A stretch of DNA of 64,000 bases from an uncultured Flavobacteriaceae bacterium (lineage in GTDB: Bacteria > Bacteroidota > Bacteroidia > Flavobacteriales > Flavobacteriaceae), in the NCBI GenBank assembly GCA_947486785.1, contig CANKUU010000004.1, positions 124,001-188,000 on the forward strand. The letters are read 5' to 3'. The notes under the pieces are model-generated. The model did not search any database. It was not told where the DNA came from and saw nothing but the letters and a program-made list of their open reading frames with translations. The number at the start of each line of letters is the position of its first letter. The first letter of the stretch is position 1. Shown here piece by piece: positions 19,640 through 60,063 of the stretch. The position numbers and the translations under genes were made by a program.

Positions 19640-22600
19640 CTACCGCACCAAGAGTTGTTCAACATGCTGTTGAAAGTCATCTGTAATAACAATAATGGAA
19701 TAAACCCCTTTGGATAAATGAGAGATATCCAATTCGTTTTTATTATTTGTAGAATAAAAAGCGTTTTGGTTAAATTCATTTATAGTTCTTCCAGACGAAT
19801 CTAAAATACTTATAGATAGTATTTTATAAGAATCATAAGTTTCAATAGTAATAATTTCCGAGGCAGGGTTAGGATAGATTTTTATTATTTGTATATCTAT
19901 TGACTTTTTTAAAGAAGCCTGTACTGGAAATTGTTGTGCAGTATTACTTGATAAAACATAACCAGGTATTACTTCTGCAGGTATTAAACCATCACCATCA
20001 CTCGGTTTTCTCCATCCTACCGCAAAATGATCACCACCAACGCCTTCTTTCATATACCCTTCAATATAATATGTTTTACCCTGTTCAAGATTGATACCTG
20101 CCGATTTTTGACTTGGATATTTATCCCATATTTTTGGATTTGTATGTCCATTATGAAATGCTATTGTTTCACTATTAGCCATATCTTCATTACTGCTAAG
20201 ATTGAATTTTACAAAATTGTCACCTGAAGCCCAAAAGTAGTATGTACCCGTTTCTGGAGCACAAAGGTAACCACTTACCCAAGCTCCATAATTATTACCA
20301 ACGTTTGTTGGTATTTCAAAACTATCTAGTTCTACTGTGCTTGACGGATTTTCAGGAAAGTTTGGAGCAATAAATAATTCAGAGAGCGTTATACCCGCGA
20401 TATTATCATACTTACGCATGGTAATTGATCCATTAGCTGTACAAACTTCTTCATTTTCAGAAAGTACAGTAATTCTTGATTCTGCTGAAAACCCTCCATC
20501 ATTTGACTGAACGGTAATGGTGGCATTTCCTTTTGATATAGCGGTAACAAGACCAAACCTATCTACAGTAGCTATATTAGTATTACTTGAAGACCACGTA
20601 ACCCTTTTGTTTGCAGCATTTGCAGGACTTATCTCAGCACTTAACTCAAATGTATTTCCTTCGTAAATCGATAATTGTCGCGGAGTTATAGCAACGGCAT
20701 TAACGCTGACTTCATATGGTATGTCTTTATTTGGTGAAAGTACATTGCCTGGTATTATTTCAAAAGGTTCAGTTCCATTTCCATGACTTGGTTTTCTCCA
20801 ACCTACGGATAAATGATCTCCTCCTACACCTTCTTTCATAAAGGCTTCTATATAATATGATTCACCCGCTACAAGATCAATACCTTCAGATTTTTGACTT
20901 TCATATCTTGTCCAAAGTCTAAGATTAGTATGCCCATTGTGAAAGGCTATTGTCGCTTTATTTGAGCTATTAGCTGAACTACTTAGGTTTAACCGAACAT
21001 GATCATCGCCAGATATCCAGAAATAGTAGGTGCCCGTTTCTGGAGCACATAGGTAACCGCTTACCCAAGCTCCGTAATTATCAGCTACATATGGCGGTAT
21101 TTCAAATTCTTCTAATTCTTTTGTTGAGGACGGATTGTTTGGAAAGTTAGAATCGGCAAACAAATTATCTAGTGATATGCCTAAAATTTGATCATACCTC
21201 CGCATAGTAATAACACCAGAAGCAGAACAATTTTCAGTTACTCTAGTCACAGAAATGTTAGCGGTATCAGTAAAATTCCCATCAGTTGTTGTTACCGTTA
21301 CTGTTGCCGTGCCTTCAGCTACTCCAGTTACTAATCCGTTAGAGCTTACGGTTGCAACATTTTCATCGCTTGATTGCCACGATAAAGAGGCGTCACTTGC
21401 ATCTGAAGGGCTAACTTCAGCGGTTAAGGTACTTGTCTCCCCTACTGTTATTCCAATAGTACTAGGGCTAAGGCTTACACCTGTTACTTCAATAATTGGT
21501 TGTGATACATTTATTGTGGTTTCGGCGGTATAAGCACCATCAGTTGTTGTTACCGTTACTGTTGCCGTGCCTTCGGCTATTCCAGTTACCAATCCGCTAG
21601 AACTTACCGTAGCAACATTTTCATCGCTTGATTGCCACGACAAAGAGGTGTCACTTGCATCTGAAGGGCTAACTTCAGCGGTTAAGGTACTTGTCTCTCC
21701 TACTGTTATTCCAATAGTACTAGGGCTAAGGCTTACACCTGTTACTTCAATAATTGGTTGTGATACATTTATTGTGGTTTCGGCCGTATAAGCACCATCA
21801 GTTGTTGTTACCGTTATTGTTACCGTGCCTTCGGCTACTGCAGTTACCAATCCGCTAGAGCTTACCGTAGCAACATTTTCATCGCTTGATTGCCATGATA
21901 AAGAGGTATCACTTGCATCTGAAGGGCTAACTTCAGCGGTTAAGGTACTTGTCTCTCCTACTGTTATTCCAATAGTACTAGGGCTAAGGCTTACACCTGT
22001 TACTTCAATAATTGGTTGTGATACATTTATTGTGGTTTCGGCCGTATAAGCACCATCAGTTGTTGTTACCGTTATTGTTACTGTGCCTTCGGCTACTGCA
22101 GTTACCAATCCGCTAGAGCTTACCGTAGCAACATTTTCATCGCTTGATTGCCATGATAAAGAGGTGTCACTTGCATTGCTTGGAATGACTTCAGCGGTTA
22201 AGGTACTTGTCTCTCCTACTGTTATTCCAATAGTACTTGGGCTAAGGCTTACACCTGTTACTTCAATAACTAGTTCTGATACATTTATTGTGGTTTCGGC
22301 TGTATAAGCACCATCAGTTGTTGTTACCGTTACTGTTGCCGTGCCTTCGGCTACTCCAGTTACCAATCCGCTAGAACTTACCGTAGCAACATTTTCATCG
22401 CTTGATTGCCACGATAAAGAGGTGTCACTTGCATCTGAAGGGCTAACTTCAGCGGTTAAGGTACTTGTCTCTCCTACTGTTATTCCAATAGTACTTGGGC
22501 TAAGGCTTACACCTGTTACTTCAATAACTAGTTCTGATACATTTATTGTGGTTTCTGCTGTATAAGCACCATCAGTTGTTGTTACCGTTACTATTGCCGT

Positions 22601-25600
22601 GCCTTCGGCTATTCCAGTTACCAATCCGCTAGAACTTACCGTAGCAACATTTTCATCGCTTGATTGCCACGATAAAGAGGTGTCACTTGCATCTGAAGGG
22701 CTAACTTCAGCGGTTAAGGTACTTGTCTCTCCTACTGTTATTCCAATAGTACTTGGGCTAAGGCTTACACCTGTTACTTCAATAACTAGTTCTGATACAT
22801 TTATTGTGGTTTCTGCTGTATAAGCACCATCAGTTGTTGTTACCGTTACTATTGCCGTGCCTTCGGCTATTCCAGTTACCAATCCGCTAGAGCTTACCGT
22901 AGCAACATTTTCATCGCTTGATTGCCACGATAAAGAGGTGTCACTTGCATCTGAAGGGCTAACTTCAGCGGTTAAGGTACTTGTCTCTCCTACTGTTATT
23001 CCAATAGTACTTGGGCTAAGGCTTACACCTGTTACTTCAATAACTAGTTCTGATACATTTATTGTGGTTTCTGCTGTATAAGCACCATCAGTTGTTGTTA
23101 CCGTTACTATTGCCGTGCCTTCGGCTATTCCAGTTACCAATCCGCTAGAACTTACCGTAGCAACATTTTCATCGCTTGATTGCCACGATAAAGAGGTATC
23201 ACTTGCATCTGAAGGGCTAACTTCAGCGGTTAAGGTACTTGTCTCTCCTACTGTTATCCCAATATTACTTGGGCTAAGGCTTACACCTGTTACTTCAATA
23301 ACTAGTTCTGATATATTTATTGTGGTTTCGGCGGTATAAGAACCATCAGTTGTTGTTACCGTTACTATTGCCGTGCCTTCGGCTATTCCAGTTACCAATC
23401 CGTTAGAGCTTACCGTAGCAACATTTTCATCGCTTGATTGCCATGATAAAGAGGTGTCACTTGCATCTGAAGGGCTAACTTCAGCGGTTAAGGTACTTGT
23501 CTCCCCTACTGTTATTCCAATATTACTTGGGCTAAGGCTTACACCTGTTACTTCAATAATTGGTTGTGATATATTTATTGTGGTTTCGGCGGTATAAGAA
23601 CCATCAGTTGTTGTTACCGTTACTGTTGCCGTGCCTTCGGCTATTCCAGTTACCAATCCGCTAGAGCTTACCGTAGCAACATTTTCATCGCTTGATTGCC
23701 ACGATAAAGAGGTATCACTTGCATCTGAAGGGCTAACTTCAGCGGTTAAGGTACTTGTCTCTCCTACTGTTATTCCAATAGTACTAGGGCTAAGGCTTAC
23801 ACCTGTTACTTCAATAATTGGTTGTGATACATTTATTGTGGTTTCGGCTGTATAAGCACCATCAGTTGTTGTTACCGTTACTGTTGCCGTGCCTTCGGCT
23901 ACTGCAGTTACCAATCCGCTAGAACTTACCGTTACAACATTTTCATCACTTGATTGCCATGATAAAGAGGTATCACTTGCATCTGAAGGGCTAACTTCAG
24001 CTGTTATTTGAGATGAACTGCTTATTTCTAAAGAAATTTCTTGAGGGTTTACAGAAACGCCCGTTACATTTACTATAGAATTGGTATCAAATGAATCGAA
24101 GGCGCTACATGGTATCACTTGAATAGGAGAATTTCCGTCACCATTACTTGGTTTACGCCACCCCACAGATAAATTGTCTCCGCCATTTGCTTCATTCATT
24201 AAGGCCTCTATATAGTAGTTTTGCCCTCCAACTAGTGATATTCCAGAAGATTTTTGTGTTGAATATTTATTCCATTCACCATCATGAGTCCAACTATTGT
24301 GATACGCAATTCTTGTAGCATTTGATTCGTTATCATCGGTACTTAAACTTAACTCAACATTGTCATCTCCAGTAATCCAAAAATAATATGTTCCTGTTTC
24401 AGGAGCTTTTAAAAGCCCTTTTACACGAACTCCATAATTATCGGCCACATTAATTGGAATACGAAACTCAGTTAATTGCGTTGTTGAAGTTGGTTGATTA
24501 GGAAATTTTTCTTCATTCTTTAGATTTGCTATAGATGTACCGGGTACATCATTATAAACTTCCATAATGATTTTGTCATCGCAGTCTTCAGGTGCTAACT
24601 GATTTATCCATTCATTAATTAATTGTACAGCTTTGGCATCAATTTTATTCTTCCCTATTGGCGGCATTTTAATTGCTGCCTCTGTACTATTCATTCTATG
24701 ATATAAAATAGAGGTAGAAACGTTGCCCGCATCTACAATTTTTTCATTTGGTATTCCTAAAGAAATATAAGGGGTTGCAGATAAAATACCTGTTTGTAAA
24801 ATATCCAAATTTAACCTTAGATCAAAATTACCTCTATTTCCTGTGCCTGATCTGTGGCAGTATGCACAATTTAAATCTAAATAAGACCTGGCTTTTTCAT
24901 CTAAACTAGCTGTTGCATCCGTTATTGATTTAGAGGTTAAAATATTATTTGTATCGTCATCGGAGATATTTTGGTTTAATATACCTAAGTGACTTAGTGT
25001 TACTAACTGGTTTGCCGTTCTTCCTGTTTTTGAATAGGTATAGTCTTTGTTTAAATACCTCGATTTTGTACCTAAAGTTCCGCCATTTGTAGAATTATGA
25101 CAACTGATACACTCAATAGCGCTGGGATAGCTCCAAGTTTGTTCACTTTGGTTACCATTTGCTTTTGTGATAGAAATTGATTCATCTAAGCCACTTCTCA
25201 ATAATACCGCATCGTTCTGTTCTTCATTCCACTTATACGTAACAAAATAGAATTTTCCGTCACTTCCTTTAATAGAAAATCTAGTTTCTAAGCGTTTTGT
25301 TTTTGTTGGGTCTCTTTCATCGATGGGTAATTCAAAGTGTTTTACTAGTACCGATCCAATGGGAAAATTCCAATCGTCAATATCATCGTAACTAATCTGT
25401 TCAGCAGCTGTGTCATGATTACCATCATTGGGTATTGCCATCCATCTCTTTTTTAGAGCACCATCAGACCAAAAAGACTCTACCAGATCATAAGGTATTA
25501 GTCCTTCAGAGGGTGATAATGTTAAAAGGTCATCGAAAGCACCTGTTTGCGATAAGAGCTCAGGGGTATTTCCAAGACCTTGATTTTTGGCAGTTAGCTT

Positions 25601-26947
25601 ATATAATGTAGAAACCCCTTGCTTTAAAATATATAGTTCACCCTGCTTGTCTTCTCCGAAAGAAATAATATTGGTAGAATTAAAATTACCATATTGCTCA
25701 TAACTACCCGTATTTATATCGACGACAAAAATCTCTTCTCCAGTACCGTAGTCTGCACAAATATATTTTCCTTGAAGTTCAGAAATTTCGTTTCCACGGT
25801 AAACGTAGCCACCAATGATTGAATTTGCAATTGATCTTGGAAAGGCAACCAATGGTTGCTCGTGAGGCATATTGTTATAAAGATTTGGAACACAGGATGT
25901 ATTTTGGTAGAAACCTTCATATAATGGCCACCCAAAATTTTTACCTTTATTTACTATATTAATTTCTTCGTGTCTTGATCCTCCAATTTCGCCAACATAC
26001 ATTTTACCCGTAGCTCTGTCTTTGGTCATTCTATGAGGGTTTCTATGACCCAAACTGTAATACTCTTCAAAATTTTCACCTTCGGCACTTAAAAATGGAT
26101 TGTCGTTGGGTATCCAATAACCATTTCCAGTTATTTCATCTGAAAATCCATGATCTTCTGGCATGGTTCTAACTGGGGGATGACTTTTTGTATTGTCCTT
26201 GTCTACATCCAATCGTAAAATTCCACCATCTAAATTATTTACGATATCTTGTGATTTTTTAAAGGCGGTTTGATCACCAGTTGTTAGGTATAAAAAGCCA
26301 TCATCACCAAATACGAGCCCACCACCTCTATGGGTTGTACCATACATGCGTATTTTGAGTAATATTTGTTCAGAAGATTCTTGAACATTTAAGGTGTTAG
26401 GGTCAGCTTCATATCTTGCAAGTATTAAAAAGTTACCCCAATATTCTTCGCTATCACAGCTTTGACCTGTATAATTGTTAGGAAAATCGTTATTATTTCT
26501 ATCTTTTGTGGTGTACCAAGTATAAAAATAATTTTTATCAGATATGCCAAATTGCGGATGTAAAGCCATACCTAAAAACCCTCCATCCCAAACAACCCCA
26601 ACTTTATTTGATAGGTCGAGCATCGTATGTTTTATAGATACATTAGGTTCTTTGTCAAACCAAAATATCTTACCGTCACGTTGCCCTACAATTATTTTAT
26701 TGGCATTTGGCACCTCATTAAATGTTAGTGGTGAAGAGAATTGAATATTCGGAAAAACAGGCACATAAGGTCTGCCCTCAGGCAATACAGAAGGAAAACT
26801 TCCGTTTAAATATGCACCTACTGGTTCTGCGGTATCTAAACCCGACCCTGCGAAGTAAGGTAAAGTGCTTAAAAGTAATATTGAGGAAAATGTAAGTGCT
26901 AATTTTCCGAATTTGTTTCGAACGAGTGTTTTAATTGCCATGATCAT
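19640..26947 (-). CDS. giant secreted PQQ-type sugar dehydrogenase / diheme cytochrome / PA14 / Big_2 protein with T9SS tail
   Basis: About 2,435 residues from the ATG at 26947 (another ATG at 26941; a TTG at 26968 is less likely). Approximate order: signal peptide (1-37); soluble PQQ-dependent sugar dehydrogenase propeller (55-455) with GGGLVFGDDGFLYLTTGDQ and YSLGHRNPHRM; an SO_2930-like cytochrome module (455-785) with haem c sites CISCH and CAYCH and MPPIGK; PA14-like domain (785-955) with GTYYFWITGDDNVELSL; eleven tandem Big_2 Ig-like repeats of 86 residues (960-1900); second PA14-like domain; a twelfth, divergent Big_2; third PA14-like domain; and a type A T9SS sorting domain with IYPNPA and KGVYSIIV. 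It is probably exported by Sec, haem-loaded in the periplasm and then attached to the cell surface. The substrate is unknown; PA14 domains often bind glycans. Confidence 0.88.
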   Translation of the reverse strand: MIMAIKTLVRNKFGKLALTFSSILLLSTLPYFAGSGLDTAEPVGAYLNGSFPSVLPEGRPYVPVFPNIQFSSPLTFNEVPNANKIIVGQRDGKIFWFDKEPNVSIKHTMLDLSNKVGVVWDGGFLGMALHPQFGISDKNYFYTWYTTKDRNNNDFPNNYTGQSCDSEEYWGNFLILARYEADPNTLNVQESSEQILLKIRMYGTTHRGGGLVFGDDGFLYLTTGDQTAFKKSQDIVNNLDGGILRLDVDKDNTKSHPPVRTMPEDHGFSDEITGNGYWIPNDNPFLSAEGENFEEYYSLGHRNPHRMTKDRATGKMYVGEIGGSRHEEINIVNKGKNFGWPLYEGFYQNTSCVPNLYNNMPHEQPLVAFPRSIANSIIGGYVYRGNEISELQGKYICADYGTGEEIFVVDINTGSYEQYGNFNSTNIISFGEDKQGELYILKQGVSTLYKLTAKNQGLGNTPELLSQTGAFDDLLTLSPSEGLIPYDLVESFWSDGALKKRWMAIPNDGNHDTAAEQISYDDIDDWNFPIGSVLVKHFELPIDERDPTKTKRLETRFSIKGSDGKFYFVTYKWNEEQNDAVLLRSGLDESISITKANGNQSEQTWSYPSAIECISCHNSTNGGTLGTKSRYLNKDYTYSKTGRTANQLVTLSHLGILNQNISDDDTNNILTSKSITDATASLDEKARSYLDLNCAYCHRSGTGNRGNFDLRLNLDILQTGILSATPYISLGIPNEKIVDAGNVSTSILYHRMNSTEAAIKMPPIGKNKIDAKAVQLINEWINQLAPEDCDDKIIMEVYNDVPGTSIANLKNEEKFPNQPTSTTQLTEFRIPINVADNYGVRVKGLLKAPETGTYYFWITGDDNVELSLSTDDNESNATRIAYHNSWTHDGEWNKYSTQKSSGISLVGGQNYYIEALMNEANGGDNLSVGWRKPSNGDGNSPIQVIPCSAFDSFDTNSIVNVTGVSVNPQEISLEISSSSQITAEVSPSDASDTSLSWQSSDENVVTVSSSGLVTAVAEGTATVTVTTTDGAYTAETTINVSQPIIEVTGVSLSPSTIGITVGETSTLTAEVSPSDASDTSLSWQSSDENVATVSSSGLVTGIAEGTATVTVTTTDGSYTAETTINISQPIIEVTGVSLSPSNIGITVGETSTLTAEVSPSDASDTSLSWQSSDENVATVSSNGLVTGIAEGTAIVTVTTTDGSYTAETTINISELVIEVTGVSLSPSNIGITVGETSTLTAEVSPSDASDTSLSWQSSDENVATVSSSGLVTGIAEGTAIVTVTTTDGAYTAETTINVSELVIEVTGVSLSPSTIGITVGETSTLTAEVSPSDASDTSLSWQSSDENVATVSSSGLVTGIAEGTAIVTVTTTDGAYTAETTINVSELVIEVTGVSLSPSTIGITVGETSTLTAEVSPSDASDTSLSWQSSDENVATVSSSGLVTGIAEGTAIVTVTTTDGAYTAETTINVSELVIEVTGVSLSPSTIGITVGETSTLTAEVSPSDASDTSLSWQSSDENVATVSSSGLVTGVAEGTATVTVTTTDGAYTAETTINVSELVIEVTGVSLSPSTIGITVGETSTLTAEVIPSNASDTSLSWQSSDENVATVSSSGLVTAVAEGTVTITVTTTDGAYTAETTINVSQPIIEVTGVSLSPSTIGITVGETSTLTAEVSPSDASDTSLSWQSSDENVATVSSSGLVTAVAEGTVTITVTTTDGAYTAETTINVSQPIIEVTGVSLSPSTIGITVGETSTLTAEVSPSDASDTSLSWQSSDENVATVSSSGLVTGIAEGTATVTVTTTDGAYTAETTINVSQPIIEVTGVSLSPSTIGITVGETSTLTAEVSPSDASDASLSWQSSDENVATVSSNGLVTGVAEGTATVTVTTTDGNFTDTANISVTRVTENCSASGVITMRRYDQILGISLDNLFADSNFPNNPSSTKELEEFEIPPYVADNYGAWVSGYLCAPETGTYYFWISGDDHVRLNLSSSANSSNKATIAFHNGHTNLRLWTRYESQKSEGIDLVAGESYYIEAFMKEGVGGDHLSVGWRKPSHGNGTEPFEIIPGNVLSPNKDIPYEVSVNAVAITPRQLSIYEGNTFELSAEISPANAANKRVTWSSSNTNIATVDRFGLVTAISKGNATITVQSNDGGFSAESRITVLSENEEVCTANGSITMRKYDNIAGITLSELFIAPNFPENPSSTVELDSFEIPTNVGNNYGAWVSGYLCAPETGTYYFWASGDNFVKFNLSSNEDMANSETIAFHNGHTNPKIWDKYPSQKSAGINLEQGKTYYIEGYMKEGVGGDHFAVGWRKPSDGDGLIPAEVIPGYVLSSNTAQQFPVQASLKKSIDIQIIKIYPNPASEIITIETYDSYKILSISILDSSGRTINEFNQNAFYSTNNKNELDISHLSKGVYSIIVITDDFQQHVEQLLVR
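21241..24080 (-). repeat. tandem array of eleven 258-bp units encoding Big_2 domains
   Basis: Eleven consecutive copies of a 258-bp unit (86 codons) inside the giant gene. The inner copies differ at only a few positions, many of them silent or alternating between a few residue choices (SQPIIE or SELVIE at the joint; GIAEGTA or AVAEGTV near the end). The first and last copies (gene order) are the most divergent. The phase is regular throughout, with no partial unit. Confidence 0.95.
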
Positions 26948-26972
26948 ATTGTGAGTATATTCGCACAATATG
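26945..26972. promoter_or_regulatory. inverted repeat at the start of the giant gene
   Basis: Nine-base arms CATATTGTG (26945-26953) and CACAATATG (26964-26972) separated by ten bases. It covers the bases just upstream of the ATG on minus and overlaps the outer ATG codon, so it could be an operator or an mRNA hairpin that controls initiation. Chance occurrence in AT-rich DNA cannot be excluded. Confidence 0.35.
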
Positions 26973-27118: not shown

Positions 27119-27856
27119 TTACTTTTTTATCTTTTTTTTATCCTTTTTATAAAACGGAAGAAAATAAGATAGTGTAAAATTATAACCTATTCCAAAATTA
27201 CTATTGTCGGTTACTTTATTAAAACCAGGAATATAAAGGTTTTTAAAATTTTCAGGTTTTTTCTGCAAAGCATTTATGAGAAAACCCATTCGAACGCTAG
27301 CTCCTAAATAAATGTTAGCGAACAATTCGGTTTTTATACCGAGAACAAACTCAATCCAAGATGCATTTAAATTATTAAACTCTTTACTACCAGAGCCTTG
27401 TGCAAAATTATCAGGATTCCAATATCGATTACTATCAAAAATGCGATAATTATTTAAAGTATGACTAAAAGTACTAAAAGCAAATCTAGCACCTACATAT
27501 ATTAAGTTTTGTTCACCATACCAGTTTTTATAAGTGTTGTAATCAAAACCTAATTTTAGGTAGCTACCAGAAGTTGTGAAATTATAAAGGTCTTCTTGTT
27601 GGATTTTCTTCTCATTACCTAATTCTACGGCCAACCAATGCTTCTGACTTATACGAAAGTCACCTACCAGTTCAATACCAGTATACCCTTCTTGAAAAGA
27701 GGATAATAGTGGTCTGCTTAAATCAATACCCACACGCAGGCCATAGGGCTGTTTATGCACTACTGTGTCTTTTGGGCTAGTATCTATTGGCTTAGTCTGG
27801 GCATTTGCCGTCAAAAAAAAGCAAAGTATACAAGTACTAATGAAATATTTTAACAT
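27119..27856 (-). CDS. outer-membrane beta-barrel-like protein (DUF6048-like)
   Basis: 245 residues with a signal peptide (cleavage probably after TANAQ, about residue 20). The rest alternates aromatic and polar residues with repeated short strands (YGLRVGIDLSRPLL, WLAVELGNEKK, YVGARFAFSTFS, LGASVRMGFLIN, FGIGYNFTLSYFLPFY), the pattern of a small outer-membrane beta-barrel. It overlaps the preceding lipoprotein gene by 20 bp. From memory this lipoprotein-barrel pair next to rlmD is conserved in Flavobacteriaceae as DUF6452 and DUF6048. A surface or envelope role is an inference. Confidence 0.72.
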   Translation of the reverse strand: MLKYFISTCILCFFLTANAQTKPIDTSPKDTVVHKQPYGLRVGIDLSRPLLSSFQEGYTGIELVGDFRISQKHWLAVELGNEKKIQQEDLYNFTTSGSYLKLGFDYNTYKNWYGEQNLIYVGARFAFSTFSHTLNNYRIFDSNRYWNPDNFAQGSGSKEFNNLNASWIEFVLGIKTELFANIYLGASVRMGFLINALQKKPENFKNLYIPGFNKVTDNSNFGIGYNFTLSYFLPFYKKDKKKIKK

Positions 27857-28355
27857 GTGCAGTTACTTCTTCTTCAAGTTTAATTGAAGGTTTTATAATT
27901 TCTATTCTTTGAATCCAGTTTTCGGCTGTTGTACTAAAGTTTGCGGTTAATTCATCATAATTTACTACGAAACCACAGGCTCTTGATTTAAAAATTTCTT
28001 TGGTTGTATACTCGAATATAAGACTATCAATAGTACCCGTTTCTTGACCGTTATCACTATCCGTAGAATTAATAATGAAAGAAAATTGGGTAGTGTTGTC
28101 ATTCGGTTTTAAAGGAATAGCAATAGAATCTAAAGTGCTAACACGATCGCTAAATGTATTAACAGGTTCCGTTTTACCTTCTCCAATAACTCTTAAACTA
28201 GGTACCATTTTAAATTCTTCGGGGTTTTCTACGTCATAAAATCGTATGATAAGTAATGGGGTGTCTTCATCTACGCAAATATCATCCTTTTCACAGGCCA
28301 AAAATATGCCGATACTAAACAGCAAAAAAATATCAATTATCTTAGGTATGTTCAT
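27837..28355 (-). CDS. lipoprotein (DUF6452-like)
   Basis: 172 residues. The N-terminus MNIPKIIDIFLLFSIGIFLAC is a lipoprotein signal with the lipobox Cys at about residue 21, followed by EKDDIC. The mature part has LLIIRFYDVENPEEFK and a run of beta strands with SIAIPLKPNDNTTQFSF, which looks like a small beta-sandwich. It is 4 bp downstream of rlmD and overlaps the following barrel gene by 20 bp, so the three genes form an operon. The pairing of a lipoprotein with a barrel suggests that the two products act together in the outer membrane, but no function is known to me. Confidence 0.75.
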   Translation of the reverse strand: MNIPKIIDIFLLFSIGIFLACEKDDICVDEDTPLLIIRFYDVENPEEFKMVPSLRVIGEGKTEPVNTFSDRVSTLDSIAIPLKPNDNTTQFSFIINSTDSDNGQETGTIDSLIFEYTTKEIFKSRACGFVVNYDELTANFSTTAENWIQRIEIIKPSIKLEEEVTAHVKIFH

Positions 28356-31194: not shown

Positions 31195-32916
31195 TTAATT
31201 GTCGACAACCCTAAATATCCATGTTTTACCTTTAAATTTCCCGTCAAAATTACTATCTCTAGCTTTTCTAGCTTCTCCAATAGTATTGTATCTAGCCAAA
31301 TACACATAATTATACCTATTAGAACTTCGGTAGAAAGATTTACCTTTAATTCCTAATTTGGCTAAATCTGCCATAAAAACATTAAAATATTTTTTAGTAC
31401 CAAAAACATTGGCTATTAAATAAAAACCTGACTCAAGACCCTCTGAATTAGACACTTCTTGATATTTCTCACCAGGTAGTGGTGTAACATCTTCTGCTCG
31501 GGCTGCGGCCTTCTCTTTGGCAATTTTGGCTTCATTAGCTGCCTTTTGTTCAGCTAATAATTTTGCTTCTTCTCTTAATTTATTTATCGAATCTTTGGTT
31601 CTAATTTCTAATGCTTTTCTAGCTGCAATTGCAGCTTCTTTTTTAGCATCATTTTCAATTTTAAGTTTAGCTAAACGTTGTTGATTTTCAACATTCTTCT
31701 TTTTAGCTGCTAGCGCTTTTTTATCTTTATTCCTATCCTTAGTAATTTTAGCCTTCTCTTTATCTCGTTTTTTCAATAAAGCAGCTTCCTCTTTACTAGC
31801 CTTATCGGCAATTGACTTATCTTGTCTAAGTTTTCTTTCTAGTTCTTTTTGTTTACTTGCTTCAATTTTTTGTTTCTTTTTGTCTGAGGCGTTTAATTTA
31901 GTGGTTTTTTTAGCTTCTCTTTGATCATCCCGAACTTCATCAGAGGTTCGCTCTTTTTGTTTTTTAACTCTTTTCTCAAATTCATTTGAAACTATTCTTC
32001 TTCTTTTACTAGGCTTTCCTATAAAGTACGATGCAATAAGCTCAAAAGAAGGATCATTTGAACTTAACGAGGAACTAATGCCAAATTCAACCAAAGCCCC
32101 TAGAGAAAATCTGTTAAATATGGTGCCCCCTGCCCCTGCTGAAATGCCGTAAAAATTGTTATATCCAACTTGTCCCCAATATTTTTGAGTACTAAATAAC
32201 GTATTTAATCCTAATTGATTTTTTTGATTTGGTATCGTTTTTACATATACTGAGGGGCGTATGTATGCGGTTTCATCAAAATTTAAAACTGAAAATTCAT
32301 ACGATGCCAAACCCATAAATATTTTATTAGAAGTACCAGCATTAGAGGTACTCTCTGTAAAATTATAGCTTACCAAATTTTCGGAAGCCAAGCTTACTGA
32401 GAAATTTTTATACTCCAAATTAATACCAGGTGCTACTTGCAAAATAAAATCGCTTGTTAACTCTGGCCCAGGAATTCCAGGTATAGGGTTTGAAGGAAAT
32501 CTCGTATCTGCCAATTCTTGCTTAAATGCAAATAAATTAAGACCGAAAGAAAGGCTTAGAAGATTATCGAATTGTAATTTATATGCATAGTTTAAAGCCA
32601 CACCTGTATCAAAAAAAACACCTGTATTATGCTCAAAAAAACCAACCCCTGCTGCAGAATTATCATTTAGAGCACGGGTATAATTTAAGAATAGCGTTGA
32701 AGGGTCTACATCAATATTTTGCCATTGCCAACGCGTCCATAAAGATATTGATTGCGGATTATTAAGGTTCAACGAAAATGCTGGGTTGTAAAGACTTGCA
32801 TTAAACTGCGTTAAATTATGTTGCCTTAAATCAGCGGGCACCAAAATATTTGCATCTTGTGAAAAACCAATAAAAGAGAATAAGCTTATAACAGCTAAAA
32901 AAATAGATTTAACCAT
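31195..32916 (-). CDS. PorP/SprF-family membrane protein with Lys/Ala coiled coil and SPOR-like C-terminus
   Basis: 573 residues. A signal peptide (to about residue 19, FIGFSQ) is followed by a PorP/SprF-type beta-barrel (about 20-310), recognised by PADLRQHNLTQFNASLYNPA and AGVGFFEHNTGVFFDTGVALNYAY. PorP/SprF proteins accompany type IX secretion and gliding. Residues about 315-480 are a highly charged Lys/Glu/Ala-rich helical region, probably a long coiled coil, and the last about 80 residues (GFYLIANVFGTKKYFNVFM, YVYLARYNTIGEARKARD) resemble a SPOR peptidoglycan-binding domain. The layout suggests an outer-membrane protein tethered to the cell wall. It stands alone, without gldKLMN or porV nearby. 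Confidence 0.85.
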   Translation of the reverse strand: MVKSIFLAVISLFSFIGFSQDANILVPADLRQHNLTQFNASLYNPAFSLNLNNPQSISLWTRWQWQNIDVDPSTLFLNYTRALNDNSAAGVGFFEHNTGVFFDTGVALNYAYKLQFDNLLSLSFGLNLFAFKQELADTRFPSNPIPGIPGPELTSDFILQVAPGINLEYKNFSVSLASENLVSYNFTESTSNAGTSNKIFMGLASYEFSVLNFDETAYIRPSVYVKTIPNQKNQLGLNTLFSTQKYWGQVGYNNFYGISAGAGGTIFNRFSLGALVEFGISSSLSSNDPSFELIASYFIGKPSKRRRIVSNEFEKRVKKQKERTSDEVRDDQREAKKTTKLNASDKKKQKIEASKQKELERKLRQDKSIADKASKEEAALLKKRDKEKAKITKDRNKDKKALAAKKKNVENQQRLAKLKIENDAKKEAAIAARKALEIRTKDSINKLREEAKLLAEQKAANEAKIAKEKAAARAEDVTPLPGEKYQEVSNSEGLESGFYLIANVFGTKKYFNVFMADLAKLGIKGKSFYRSSNRYNYVYLARYNTIGEARKARDSNFDGKFKGKTWIFRVVDN

Positions 32917-56667: not shown

Positions 56668-59600
56668 TTAGTTAAAGGTCGCGTTTACTAGTGCTATTGT
56701 TGCTGGATCTTTATCTTCTTCAACCGTCGCGAGAATAAAAATATCGTTCTTACCCTTGATTTTTTTCAGTAATGGGATCGCAATAACTTGACCTATCGAA
56801 CCTTTAGATTGCGGGGACAAAGAACCATTACCTATAAGCTCTCCATTGGGCGAATTTAGTCGTACTTCAAAATTATATGCAACCTGAGGTGCTTCTTTCC
56901 ACCCAGCTGCTAATGTAATAGTATTTATGGTCGTTAGGTCAATCGCATCAAGTTCAAACCAACCTCGAGTGCTTTGTAATAGTAGCAAATCTCTTCCGTC
57001 ATAGGTGACAGGTGACATACCATCTGTTTTTGTTTGTTTTGAAAAATTTACAATATTGCTTGCAAGGGTAATCGAGGTAGAACCCGTTAACGGAATGGTT
57101 CCCTCAGCACCATTATCTGTGTAGCTTGCCGTTAAAACCATTATTTTATTAGGCGAATCTGCTGCTACATTAATCACTCCTTTTGTCGGTAATGAGGGTT
57201 TTATATTACCGTTTCCATTCAAAGACATAATGTAAGATACGATTTGCCTTGTTTCATCTGGTGTTATATTAGGATGTGCCGCCATCATCACTTCTCCCCA
57301 AACGCCACTACCTCCAACTTTAATTTTATTCTGAAGATAACTCATCGCATTTTTGTCATCTTTATATTTCTTTGCTATGGCCATGTAGTTTGGACCTATA
57401 GAAGCTTCGGACTCTTTATGACAGGCTTTGCAATCCATTGCTTGGGTTAGTGCTTTTCCTGTGATAGCTTCGGATACTTGTTGATGCCCTAAAGACATAG
57501 TAACCTTATCTAATCCCTCTAAATAATCGACAGAAACAAAAACATTATTTAAGTCAATACTGGTAGTTTCTTCATCTGATACAGATACCTCATACTTTAC
57601 CTCTTGCCCGGGCATGTAAAAAGATGTGTTGCCTCCAACCAAATCCACAGTCACCTTAGGCCTAGAATTACCTGCAATTATAGTTTCAACATTACTCTTT
57701 GCAGTTTCTCCTTTTTCATCTTTTACCGATACCACTATTTTATAATCCCCGGGTGTTGTATAGGTATAGCTGATTTCTGGCTCAGTTGTTTCTTTTGTTT
57801 CTCCGTTGCCAAAATCCCAAACGTAACGCATCGGATCTTTCTCACGATCAATTGCCTCTACCTGTGCCTTGATGGCTAATGGAAGTTTCCCCGAAGTATG
57901 ATCAACTTGAAAGCTTTCTATTACAGGAGGGCGATTTCCACCATTAAAATCAACAAAACTCAACGCTGCATTCTTGTTTGCAGAAAACCAACCACTACCA
58001 TACTCTAATAAGTATAATCTACCATCGGGCGACATTTCCATATCTATTAAATTATTAACCTTAATATCAGAAGCGAAAGGTTCCATTTTATTAAAGCTAC
58101 CATCTTCAAAAAGGTGTATTGCCCTCATCCAACCCCTCATCCAATCATAGATAATTACCTTACCATCATAATAGCTTGGCAATCCACCACCATTAGGGTA
58201 CTGATCAGAGTAATAGGTTGGCCCCGCCATAGCATTTCGACCACCACTACCTACTTGAGGAAAATCTGAGGTTTCTGCATACGGATAAAACACATAGGCA
58301 GGCTGGGCTGGAGGCAGCTCTTTTAAACCTGTATTATTTTTAGAATTGTTAATCGGTTTTTTAGGGTCGAAGGCTGTACCACTTTCACCCGTTGCGTAAT
58401 TGTATGCAACATAAGGTTTATTATCTGCAATAAAAAAAGGCCATCCAAAATTACCCGCTTCACGAGCTTGATTCATTTCATCATAGCCTCTTGGTCCACG
58501 TGTTTCGATTTGATCATTTTGTGCATCAGGACCAACATCACCCCAATACACATAGCCCTTCTTAGAATCTACAGAAATACGATACGGATTTCGATGCCCC
58601 ATGGTATATATTTCGGGGCGGGTTTTAGCGGTACCCACAGGAAATAAATTTCCCTCAGGAATTTCATAACTACCATCTTCATTAATTCGGATGCGAAGTA
58701 TTTTTCCGCGTAGATCATTTGTGTTGCCTGAAGATCTACTTGCATCATACTGCTCTTTCCCTGGCAAATCATTCAAAGGAGCAAAACCATTATTTACATA
58801 TTTAGCGGTTTTATCATCGAAAGGGGTAGAATTATCTCCTGTAGAAAGGTAAAGCAGTCCATCACCACCAAACGCAATAGATCCGCCTGTATGACAACAA
58901 ATTTCTCTTTGCGAATTTACATCCAAAATCTGTTGCTCAGAAGCCATATCAAAATTACCGTCAAAATACTTAAAGCGCGATAAACGATTTACTTCTTTTT
59001 CACCTGTAGGGGCATAAAATACATAAATCCAATGATTAGAGTTATAATTTGGATCTTTTTGAATTCCCATTAAGCCCTCCTCTGCATTTACCCCGGGTGT
59101 ATTTAAGGTTTTATGATAAACAGATAATTTTGCAACCTCTGAAATTTCTTTAGTGTCTGCATTATACCTTAAAATTTCGCCTCTTCGCTGTCCAATTAAA
59201 ACATCATTATTTGGTAGAATTGTCATTTCTGTTGGCTCAAAAAAGACTCCTTCTTTTAACACAATTTTCGAAAACCGATCTGAGTCGGGTGGTATCTGTG
59301 AGGTAGCCTTAGAATAATCTAAAATTAAATTATTGCCAATTGCAAATTGAATACCCCCTAACAAATGTTTTAAAAAAGCATCCTCTTTGTAACTGGCATC
59401 GGTATGGCCTGCCCCAGTATAGAAGGCTCTACCCCCATCAAAATCATGATACCAGGCAATGGGATGCTCATCACCATTTTCTCCGCCCTGGTAGGTTGCT
59501 TCATCAACTGTTATTAAAACATTTACATTTTTATTTAGTTTTTTGTAATTATAAATTTCATCTGATCTATGCCATATTTTATTTTCAAAATGCTTGGTGG

Positions 59601-60063
59601 CGGCAAAACTAGCATCTTCAATTATAAAATCGGCCTCAGGTGTCCCTTGCGGATGGCTTAAAAACTGCGCTCCAACTAACTTGGTATACCATCCCCAATC
59701 ATATTCTGTATCTGCCGCTGCATGAACGCCTACAAAACCGCCCCCTGCTTGAATATATCGCTCAAAAGCGGCTTCCTCTTTATGATCTAGCACGTTATTG
59801 GTTGTATTTAAAAAAATAACCGCTGAATACTGTTTTAGATTATCCTCGTTAAAAAGAGCTGCGTTTTTTGTGGTATCTACCTTAAAACCATTTTCTAAAC
59901 CAAGTTTTTGAATAGCTTCTATGCCCTTTGGTATAGACGCATGATTAAACCCCATTGTTTTTGAGAACACTAAAACTTTAGGCGTACCATCTCTTTTATT
60001 GTCTGAGCAGCTTGTTAATGAACATAAAAAGCTAAATACAAATACAAACAGTACATTCTTCAT
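56668..60063 (-). CDS. ThuA / PQQ-type sugar dehydrogenase / PKD / cytochrome c lipoprotein
   Basis: 1,131 residues. Lipoprotein signal (FSFLCSLTSC, Cys at about residue 19). Approximate order: ThuA-like domain (28-235) with VLVFSKTMGFNHASIPKGIEA and GGGFVGVHAAADTEYDWGWY; soluble PQQ-dependent sugar dehydrogenase propeller (255-690) with VLIGQRRGEILRY, GVNAEEGLMGIQ, GGDGLLYLSTGDN and MGHRNPYRISVDS; PKD domain (705-800) with YVWDFGNGE and YTTPGDYKIVVSV; a c-type cytochrome domain (850-970) with CKACH and a distal Met in MMAAHPNIT; and a C-terminal carbohydrate-binding-like domain (985-1131) with NIMVLTASYTDNGAEG-like strands and WFELDAIDL. It is probably anchored to the outer membrane, oxidising a sugar and passing electrons to haem. 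Confidence 0.9.
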   Translation of the reverse strand: MKNVLFVFVFSFLCSLTSCSDNKRDGTPKVLVFSKTMGFNHASIPKGIEAIQKLGLENGFKVDTTKNAALFNEDNLKQYSAVIFLNTTNNVLDHKEEAAFERYIQAGGGFVGVHAAADTEYDWGWYTKLVGAQFLSHPQGTPEADFIIEDASFAATKHFENKIWHRSDEIYNYKKLNKNVNVLITVDEATYQGGENGDEHPIAWYHDFDGGRAFYTGAGHTDASYKEDAFLKHLLGGIQFAIGNNLILDYSKATSQIPPDSDRFSKIVLKEGVFFEPTEMTILPNNDVLIGQRRGEILRYNADTKEISEVAKLSVYHKTLNTPGVNAEEGLMGIQKDPNYNSNHWIYVFYAPTGEKEVNRLSRFKYFDGNFDMASEQQILDVNSQREICCHTGGSIAFGGDGLLYLSTGDNSTPFDDKTAKYVNNGFAPLNDLPGKEQYDASRSSGNTNDLRGKILRIRINEDGSYEIPEGNLFPVGTAKTRPEIYTMGHRNPYRISVDSKKGYVYWGDVGPDAQNDQIETRGPRGYDEMNQAREAGNFGWPFFIADNKPYVAYNYATGESGTAFDPKKPINNSKNNTGLKELPPAQPAYVFYPYAETSDFPQVGSGGRNAMAGPTYYSDQYPNGGGLPSYYDGKVIIYDWMRGWMRAIHLFEDGSFNKMEPFASDIKVNNLIDMEMSPDGRLYLLEYGSGWFSANKNAALSFVDFNGGNRPPVIESFQVDHTSGKLPLAIKAQVEAIDREKDPMRYVWDFGNGETKETTEPEISYTYTTPGDYKIVVSVKDEKGETAKSNVETIIAGNSRPKVTVDLVGGNTSFYMPGQEVKYEVSVSDEETTSIDLNNVFVSVDYLEGLDKVTMSLGHQQVSEAITGKALTQAMDCKACHKESEASIGPNYMAIAKKYKDDKNAMSYLQNKIKVGGSGVWGEVMMAAHPNITPDETRQIVSYIMSLNGNGNIKPSLPTKGVINVAADSPNKIMVLTASYTDNGAEGTIPLTGSTSITLASNIVNFSKQTKTDGMSPVTYDGRDLLLLQSTRGWFELDAIDLTTINTITLAAGWKEAPQVAYNFEVRLNSPNGELIGNGSLSPQSKGSIGQVIAIPLLKKIKGKNDIFILATVEEDKDPATIALVNATFN

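Follow-up and report, generated by a model that had tools for sequence, protein, structure and literature searches.

A recurrent propeller–dihaem fusion with a sorting tail, a candidate surface oxidoreductase of Bacteroidota

What kind of protein is encoded by a single frame of 2.4 kilocodons that joins a propeller of a sugar dehydrogenase family to two haem sites, lectin-type domains, a long array of immunoglobulin (Ig)-like repeats and a sorting tail of the type IX secretion system (T9SS)? Such a frame lies on the minus strand of a 64,000-nucleotide stretch, hereafter the window, taken from contig CANKUU010000004.1 of an uncultured Flavobacteriaceae bacterium (assembly GCA_947486785.1, positions 124,001 to 188,000). 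An original prediction, made from the DNA letters alone, described a cell-surface enzyme that oxidises aldoses with pyrroloquinoline quinone (PQQ) and carries its own electron relay, in a layout without a known characterised precedent. The follow-up analysis presented here found that reading right in outline and too firm on PQQ and the relay. The fusion is real, recurrent and uncharacterised in the literature searched, and the account that we tentatively prefer is that of a surface-held, glycan-anchored, T9SS-exported dihaem oxidoreductase with a putative cofactor.

Recurrence of the fusion and exchange of its modules

The open frame (19640..26968; 2,442 codons counted from TTG 26968, with a second in-frame ATG at 26941 following that at 26947) encodes, in order, a GSDH propeller, an SO2930-type domain with two CxxCH motifs, PA14, eleven Big_2 repeats, PA14, Big_2, PA14 and the T9SS tail (Table 1). 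Pfam and NCBIfam searches bore out this list and its order within one frame as originally proposed, with GSDH (PF07995; 137.8 bits, cut-off 25), three stretches of PA14, twelve of Big_2 and Por_Secre_tail (PF18962; 46.8 bits) all above the Pfam cut-off, and TIGR04183 at 31.9 bits against an NCBIfam cut-off of 23. Propeller and haem modules were thus both found: the SO2930 model TIGR03806 was covered over its full length (2-314) at 231.9 bits, below the curated cut-off of 313.3, and the two haem sites lie at residues 620 and 701.

Beyond the window protein, the propeller–dihaem fusion was seen in 14 proteins from 11 further genomes, which makes 15 proteins in the 12 genomes compared. When named genome contigs were scanned with the propeller–dihaem part, four loci with five fused proteins came up: two tandem proteins in Maribacter algarum and one each in Euzebyella marina, Maribacter thermophilus and an uncultured Flavobacteriaceae bacterium. 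Among 199 genomes of the window's family, 89 had some TIGR03806 match and seven a match above the curated cut-off; propeller and dihaem domain were confirmed within one frame in eight, including a genome (G172) whose 1562-residue fused protein is identical to that of E. marina, so that Euzebyella belongs to the window's family, and a fusion is presumed in a ninth (G106), where a contig end cuts the frame just ahead of the dihaem domain. A phylum scan of 395 genomes, with two candidates scored per genome, listed a whole-core match in three: G157, the window's genome and, from a different family, G444, which has two copies of the fused core. The tandem paralogues of M. algarum (L012, 1538-13856) fall in different subclades, the first with ricin-B and the second with PA14.

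Because the core fusion recurs in other assemblies, a core made of two genes joined by an assembly error was rejected. An artefact of any kind, whether joined genes or a false repeat array, is extremely improbable: the genome is split over 136 contigs and exact repeats inside the array run to 305 bases, yet both the core fusion and the module order recur elsewhere and the window contains no N, leaving copy number alone in question.

In a tree of 53 SO2930 domains, 16 fused-type domains (among them that of G106, presumed fused only) and the domain of another genome, G066, lie on one side of a branch with 100/100 support, and the 36 others lie on the opposite side. The 15 fused propellers likewise stand together in a tree of 26 propellers (94/92; 92% of bootstrap trees). 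Both trees fit a single fusion, after which the gene spread, modules were exchanged and the propeller was lost once; where the very long branches L007 and L009 belong is unsure. The G066 protein (L052, 6541-8590), whose dihaem domain is nested in the fused clade, has a similar leader and a propeller in no frame; PKD and FG-GAP follow its dihaem domain (Pfam), and the frame reaches the contig end.

The core is conserved (38-79% identity to that of the window across 13 aligned proteins) and the modules after it are swapped, the smallest form consisting of core and T9SS tail. PA14 and Big_2 follow the core in several fused proteins, ricin-B and PKD in M. thermophilus and one of the two G164 proteins (the other has malectin), F5/8C alongside PA14 and Big_2 in G189, and ricin-B with NPCBM in G140. 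Modules of carbohydrate-binding type (PA14, ricin-B, malectin, F5/8C, NPCBM) were matched in 11 of the 15 proteins; L046, L050 and the two G444 proteins gave no such match at the Pfam thresholds used. The complete G444 protein (L073, 881 residues) runs from a leader through propeller and dihaem domain to the T9SS tail; the N-terminus of its sister (L072) runs into a contig end, and a stretch without an assigned domain precedes the tail. All 15 proteins have a T9SS-tail match, above the Pfam or NCBIfam cut-off in 13 and below it in M. thermophilus (22.5 against 23) and in the longer G164 protein (17.6 against 23).

This distribution bears on a second explanation, in which the protein is mainly a fibrillar adhesin built of PA14 domains and the Ig array, and the redox core rides along as a passenger, modifying or sensing the glycan to which the adhesin binds. 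To our knowledge, no RTX adhesin with a PA14 lectin and an Ig-like array contains a redox core. As far as the source texts go, the giant RTX adhesin of Marinomonas primoryensis combines a PA14 lectin with an adjacent Asp pair (PMC8092209) and a long Ig-like repeat region (PMC4083281), and is secreted by a type I system (PMC6650083), where the window protein has a T9SS tail. At the place of the adjacent Asp pair (DcisD) that would bind calcium and sugar in a PA14 lectin, a check of residue identity in the window protein gave Asp-Asp in the first two PA14 domains and Asp-Asn in the third. Between relatives, the array units diverge far more than the core, a point in favour of an adhesin. Against this stand the two G444 proteins, which amount to core and T9SS tail with no PA14 or Big_2 match, and L046 and L050, which lack a carbohydrate-binding-type match at the threshold used. 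The core therefore defines the family, and we regard the adhesin explanation as improbable.

The predicted count of eleven tandem Big_2 repeats and one separate repeat was confirmed, with an exact number that depends on the assembly and could be off if short reads underlie it: the array DNA has a period of 258, 10.6 copies and 96% matches, and units 2-10 are 91-100% identical. A search for the same layout in relatives recovered the window's module order in L048 and L011, with seven and one tandem units instead of eleven, so the layout is not unique; the second M. algarum protein has three units and a fourth PA14. The cores of the window protein and L048 are 79% identical, and their Big_2 units are only 35-59% alike. 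Nine of the twelve window units match a sister unit at 96-100%, as do four of the eight L048 units at 96% or above, and window units match those of the four other proteins compared at 62% at most; units of the two M. algarum paralogues reach 72% with each other. Because units resemble their own sisters and not the units of other proteins, the arrays of the window and L048, which occupy the same site between the first and second PA14 domains, underwent separate expansion or homogenisation. Arrays of 1, 3, 7 and 11 units offer a ready-made series in which to study the effect of stalk length.

The propeller, the dihaem domain and the cofactor

Oxidation of aldoses with PQQ was not supported in the form first proposed. 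The PQQ dehydrogenase model TIGR03606 gave 71.1 bits, far below its cut-off of 434.55. When a profile of 13 cores was compared with solved structures, the hedgehog-interacting protein (HHIP) ranked first (3.1e-22), followed by 3a9g and 2g8s and by sGDH at 7e-14. Structure prediction, suggested earlier as a check, helped in part: a weak core model (mean predicted local distance difference test score, pLDDT, 58.3; built from six sequences) found by Foldseek the same two groups, HHIP and the PQQ enzymes, and the dihaem model was too poor to use. By profile and fold search, HHIP is the best solved relative of the propeller. The window protein and HHIP have the motifs GGxVYRG and FGEDxxGExY in common; unlike the window protein, HHIP has HDP (in a weak alignment) in place of RNP and no haem domain.

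The soluble PQQ sugar dehydrogenases, comprising sGDH of Acinetobacter and the Asd enzymes of E. coli (2g8s) and Pyrobaculum (3a9g), have propellers of the same Pfam family, and the pocket can be compared residue by residue. In sGDH, Arg228 and Asn229 would lie on the catalytic side of PQQ, and Arg406 would be, with Lys377 and Arg408, one of the basic residues that hold the PQQ carboxylates. In the source text available, His144 is catalytic and Lys377 and Arg408 contact PQQ (PMC6881789). All these residue numbers agree with the chain numbering of the solved structure. An alignment of 26 propellers placed the His144 equivalent in all 15 fused propellers, that of Arg228 (in RNP) also in all 15 and that of Asn229 in 13, and the window propeller keeps them as His213, Arg309 and Asn310. 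Unlike the soluble enzymes, none of the 15 has a basic residue at the places of Lys377, Arg406 and Arg408, which in the window are taken by Gly, Asn433 and Ile435. The C-terminal Arg-x-Arg, found in five solved enzymes and in the classic ASD of the window's genome (L007), is absent from all 15 fused and all eight aligned stand-alone HIPL-type propellers, and from two other large GSDH proteins of the window's genome; the stand-alone HIPL-type propeller L066 has an Arg one column before this place. Three basic residues are peculiar to the fused set relative to ASD, namely Arg313 (15/15), Arg391 (14/15) and Lys401 (14/15), and could take over cofactor contacts. Arg391 was considered as the counterpart of Lys377 and ruled out by chain numbering and a column check. 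With the catalytic His and Arg kept and the basic contacts gone, PQQ as the cofactor is only partly supported.

Two further GSDH proteins were noted in the same genome. The window holds a second GSDH–cytochrome fusion (56668-60063, minus strand; 1131 residues, with ThuA, GSDH, PKD and a one-haem cytochrome c domain), likewise without Arg-x-Arg. On another contig (L006, 6064-13029), a 2321-residue GSDH protein with CBM6, three malectin stretches, FG-GAP, PKD and a T9SS tail adjoins open reading frames (ORFs) that, by eye, resemble exopolysaccharide genes.

The dihaem domain is the second half of the core. Both CxxCH motifs are kept in all 51 SO2930 domains aligned, and the only Met invariant in these rows is Met768 (MPP), the likely sixth ligand of one haem; the other haem has no obvious candidate. 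No PDB chain matched the domain by sequence at E 1, and a fold search from a model too weak for the purpose (pLDDT 51.7) gave no match at E 0.001. The window domain differs from the SO2930 model family in being below the curated cut-off; among the matches listed, the non-fused ones lie mostly in frames of about 330-560 residues, and the 36 placed in the tree stand apart from the fused ones. SO2930 itself is a Shewanella cytochrome, predicted in the source text available to be located in the outer membrane or outside the cell (PMC4837345). In one genome (G029; L054, 3125-7796), an ASPIC/UnbV FG-GAP protein with a T9SS tail is encoded between two stand-alone SO2930 genes and is a possible partner for this cytochrome family.

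Several of these results weigh against a propeller that oxidises sugars in a surface oxidoreductase: the rank of HHIP, the lack of basic residues at all three contact places, the absence of any invariant His beyond CxxCH in the 51 rows alongside a single invariant Met, and the retention of the dihaem part without a propeller by a member of the fused clade (G066). PqqE likewise gave only matches below the cut-off in each of the 11 genomes covered (that of L011 left out), a threshold that none of 14 control genomes crossed either; PQQ might be scavenged. Finally, no operon partner or gene context common to all lineages was seen among the loci examined, and for that reason no argument from operons is made.

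The explanation that draws most on these points makes the propeller an HHIP-like binding module and not an enzyme. Activity would then reside in the dihaem domain, which would either exchange electrons or act as a haem enzyme in which one haem is open or has unusual ligands. The missing contacts, the HHIP match, the G066 protein and the PqqE result (controls likewise below cut-off) speak for a non-enzymatic propeller, and a sixth ligand that is not evident for one haem suits an active dihaem domain. However, the PQQ-side His and Arg are kept in all 15 propellers and the Asn in 13, where HHIP, in a weak alignment, has HDP for RNP, and the available text on CcSDH describes a PQQ-dependent enzyme without several of the usual PQQ residues (PMC4133262), so PQQ sites can differ. 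We consider a non-enzymatic propeller rather unlikely, though deserving of serious weight.

Export, reach and the path of electrons

For the oxidoreductase that we prefer, export by the T9SS was borne out in principle, with a tail above the cut-off, SprA at 2836.2 bits and 17 T9SS-tail matches in the window's genome. A 1073-residue frame matches part of the ResB model (positions 195-270 of 486) at 34.2 bits against a cut-off of 24.6 and may encode a haem-attachment protein. The protein would leave the cytoplasm by Sec and receive its haems in the periplasm, after which the T9SS would carry it over the outer membrane; the tail would be cleaved off and the protein anchored at the surface by its C-terminal end. 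With the sorting tail at the C-terminus, the redox core at the N-terminus should form the outer tip, the stalk lying between core and cell. PA14 domains would then bind target glycans on an alga, a polysaccharide or another cell, and the Ig array would set the reach; with an Ig domain measuring roughly 4 nm, the eleven units would by themselves cover about 40 nm if extended. At the tip, the propeller would oxidise an alcohol or sugar group by means of PQQ, or a similar cofactor, seated in its changed pocket, and electrons would pass to the two adjacent haems and on to an acceptor outside the cell. In favour of this account count the domain content, the recurrence of core and T9SS tail in all 15 proteins, the carbohydrate-binding-type modules of 11 of them, the catalytic residues kept in the propellers, the CxxCH pairs of all 51 SO2930 rows, SprA and the ResB-type match, the basic residues peculiar to the fused set, and the precedents of CcPDH and CcSDH.

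The electron relay claimed at the outset stood in its first half, since transfer from propeller to haem is plausible; the tail, in contrast, is at the opposite end of the chain, and the haems would sit beyond the stalk. Between the haems and the sorting tail lie more than 1,600 residues with no haem site, and direct electron transfer back to the cell along the stalk is unlikely. With the haems at the outer end, the acceptor is therefore probably extracellular, or else neighbouring surface proteins would have to be reached by bending.

A dehydrogenase–cytochrome pair at a polysaccharide surface recalls CDH and CcPDH, and a bacterial counterpart of these that feeds lytic polysaccharide monooxygenases (LPMOs) was weighed. 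The general plan of dehydrogenase, cytochrome and carbohydrate-binding module is shared with CcPDH, a PQQ dehydrogenase–cytochrome–CBM fusion (PMC5960967), and with Cbp2D of Cellvibrio japonicus, which can feed an LPMO through its X183 domain and whose domains, as named in the text available, do not include a GSDH propeller (PMC8981238). LPMO_10 (PF03067), however, was found in none of the 11 genomes with the core or dihaem part (that of L011 left out), by a model that did match a control genome, which makes this function very improbable. CcPDH and CcSDH of Coprinopsis cinerea (AA8-AA12-CBM1) differ further in being fungal, in their haem b AA8 domain and in having no Ig array or T9SS tail. Their AA12 domain keeps Arg621, which the available text says is conserved in bacterial enzymes and which would correspond to Arg406. 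The haem b AA8 domain is absent from the window protein: no cytochrome-type Pfam family was among the 12 listed for it, and its haem part is of c-type, with CxxCH motifs. Sorbosone dehydrogenases were weighed as precedents that carry haem and set aside, since the texts did not confirm their haem content.

The protein thus belongs to a known kind, the modular extracellular dehydrogenase–cytochrome fusions such as CcPDH, and is new in being bacterial and c-type with a T9SS tail. In accord with the original prediction, the passages of literature searched contained no description of a protein with the full layout, nor of any T9SS-exported cell-surface oxidoreductase with built-in c-type haems. If the preferred account is true, Bacteroidota can place electron-transferring oxidoreductases on glycan-binding stalks, and the family would test whether HIPL-type propellers that are matched by the GSDH model and lack the basic PQQ contacts use PQQ at all. 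More speculative, and in our view doubtful, is a whole class of extracellular haem oxidoreductases displayed by the T9SS. In these, an HHIP-type propeller that lacks the classic basic PQQ contacts would work together with a dihaem module, maybe itself catalytic. A stalk of changing length, the product of rapid, lineage-specific repeat expansion, would keep both tens of nanometres away from the cell, and electrons would be exchanged in either direction with extracellular partners.

Feature coordinates and gene surroundings

Table 1. Features of the fused gene, in window coordinates
Feature	Position	Strand	Basis or remark
Whole coding frame	19640..26947	-	start at ATG 26947; mechanical ORF begins at TTG 26968
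N-terminal signal-like segment, basic residues then hydrophobic run KLALTFSSILLLSTLPYFA	26852..26947	-	predicted by eye from translation
GSDH / HHIP-like six-bladed-type propeller, residues 40-468	25565..26851	-	Pfam, profile and fold searches, alignment
SO2930-type dihaem domain, residues 469-801	24566..25564	-	NCBIfam match and CxxCH sites
Haem site 1, CISCH, residues 620-624	25097..25111	-	CxxCH here in 51/51 SO2930 rows
Haem site 2, CAYCH, residues 701-705	24854..24868	-	CxxCH here in 51/51 SO2930 rows
Met768 of MPP	24665..24667	-	sole invariant Met of 51 rows
PA14 domain 1, residues 800-956	24101..24571	-	Pfam; adjacent Asp pair GDD
Eleven tandem Big_2 Ig-like repeats, 86 residues each, residues 968-1913	21230..24067	-	Pfam and repeat analysis
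PA14 domain 2, residues 1919-2073	20750..21214	-	Pfam; adjacent Asp pair GDD
Twelfth Big_2 repeat, residues 2089-2170	20459..20704	-	Pfam
PA14 domain 3, residues 2181-2335	19964..20428	-	Pfam; GDN replaces GDD
T9SS type A sorting tail (IYPNPA)	19664..19879	-	Por_Secre_tail and TIGR04183 above cut-off

The surroundings of the fused gene vary with the lineage. By eye, the Maribacter, Euzebyella and uncultured copies have nearby ORFs that resemble a GH13/GH31 and MFS set, and those of G075 and G184 are preceded by ORFs sized like a trp operon. The window copy is bordered by an RlmL-type methyltransferase gene on one side and by DUF6048 and DUF6452 genes on the other. These last two, upstream of the fused gene (27119-28355, minus strand), overlap one another and are adjoined by RlmD. 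A few genes upstream of the fused gene (31195-32916, minus strand) lies a gene for a T9SS membrane protein of PorP/SprF type that carries a long extension at its C-terminus.
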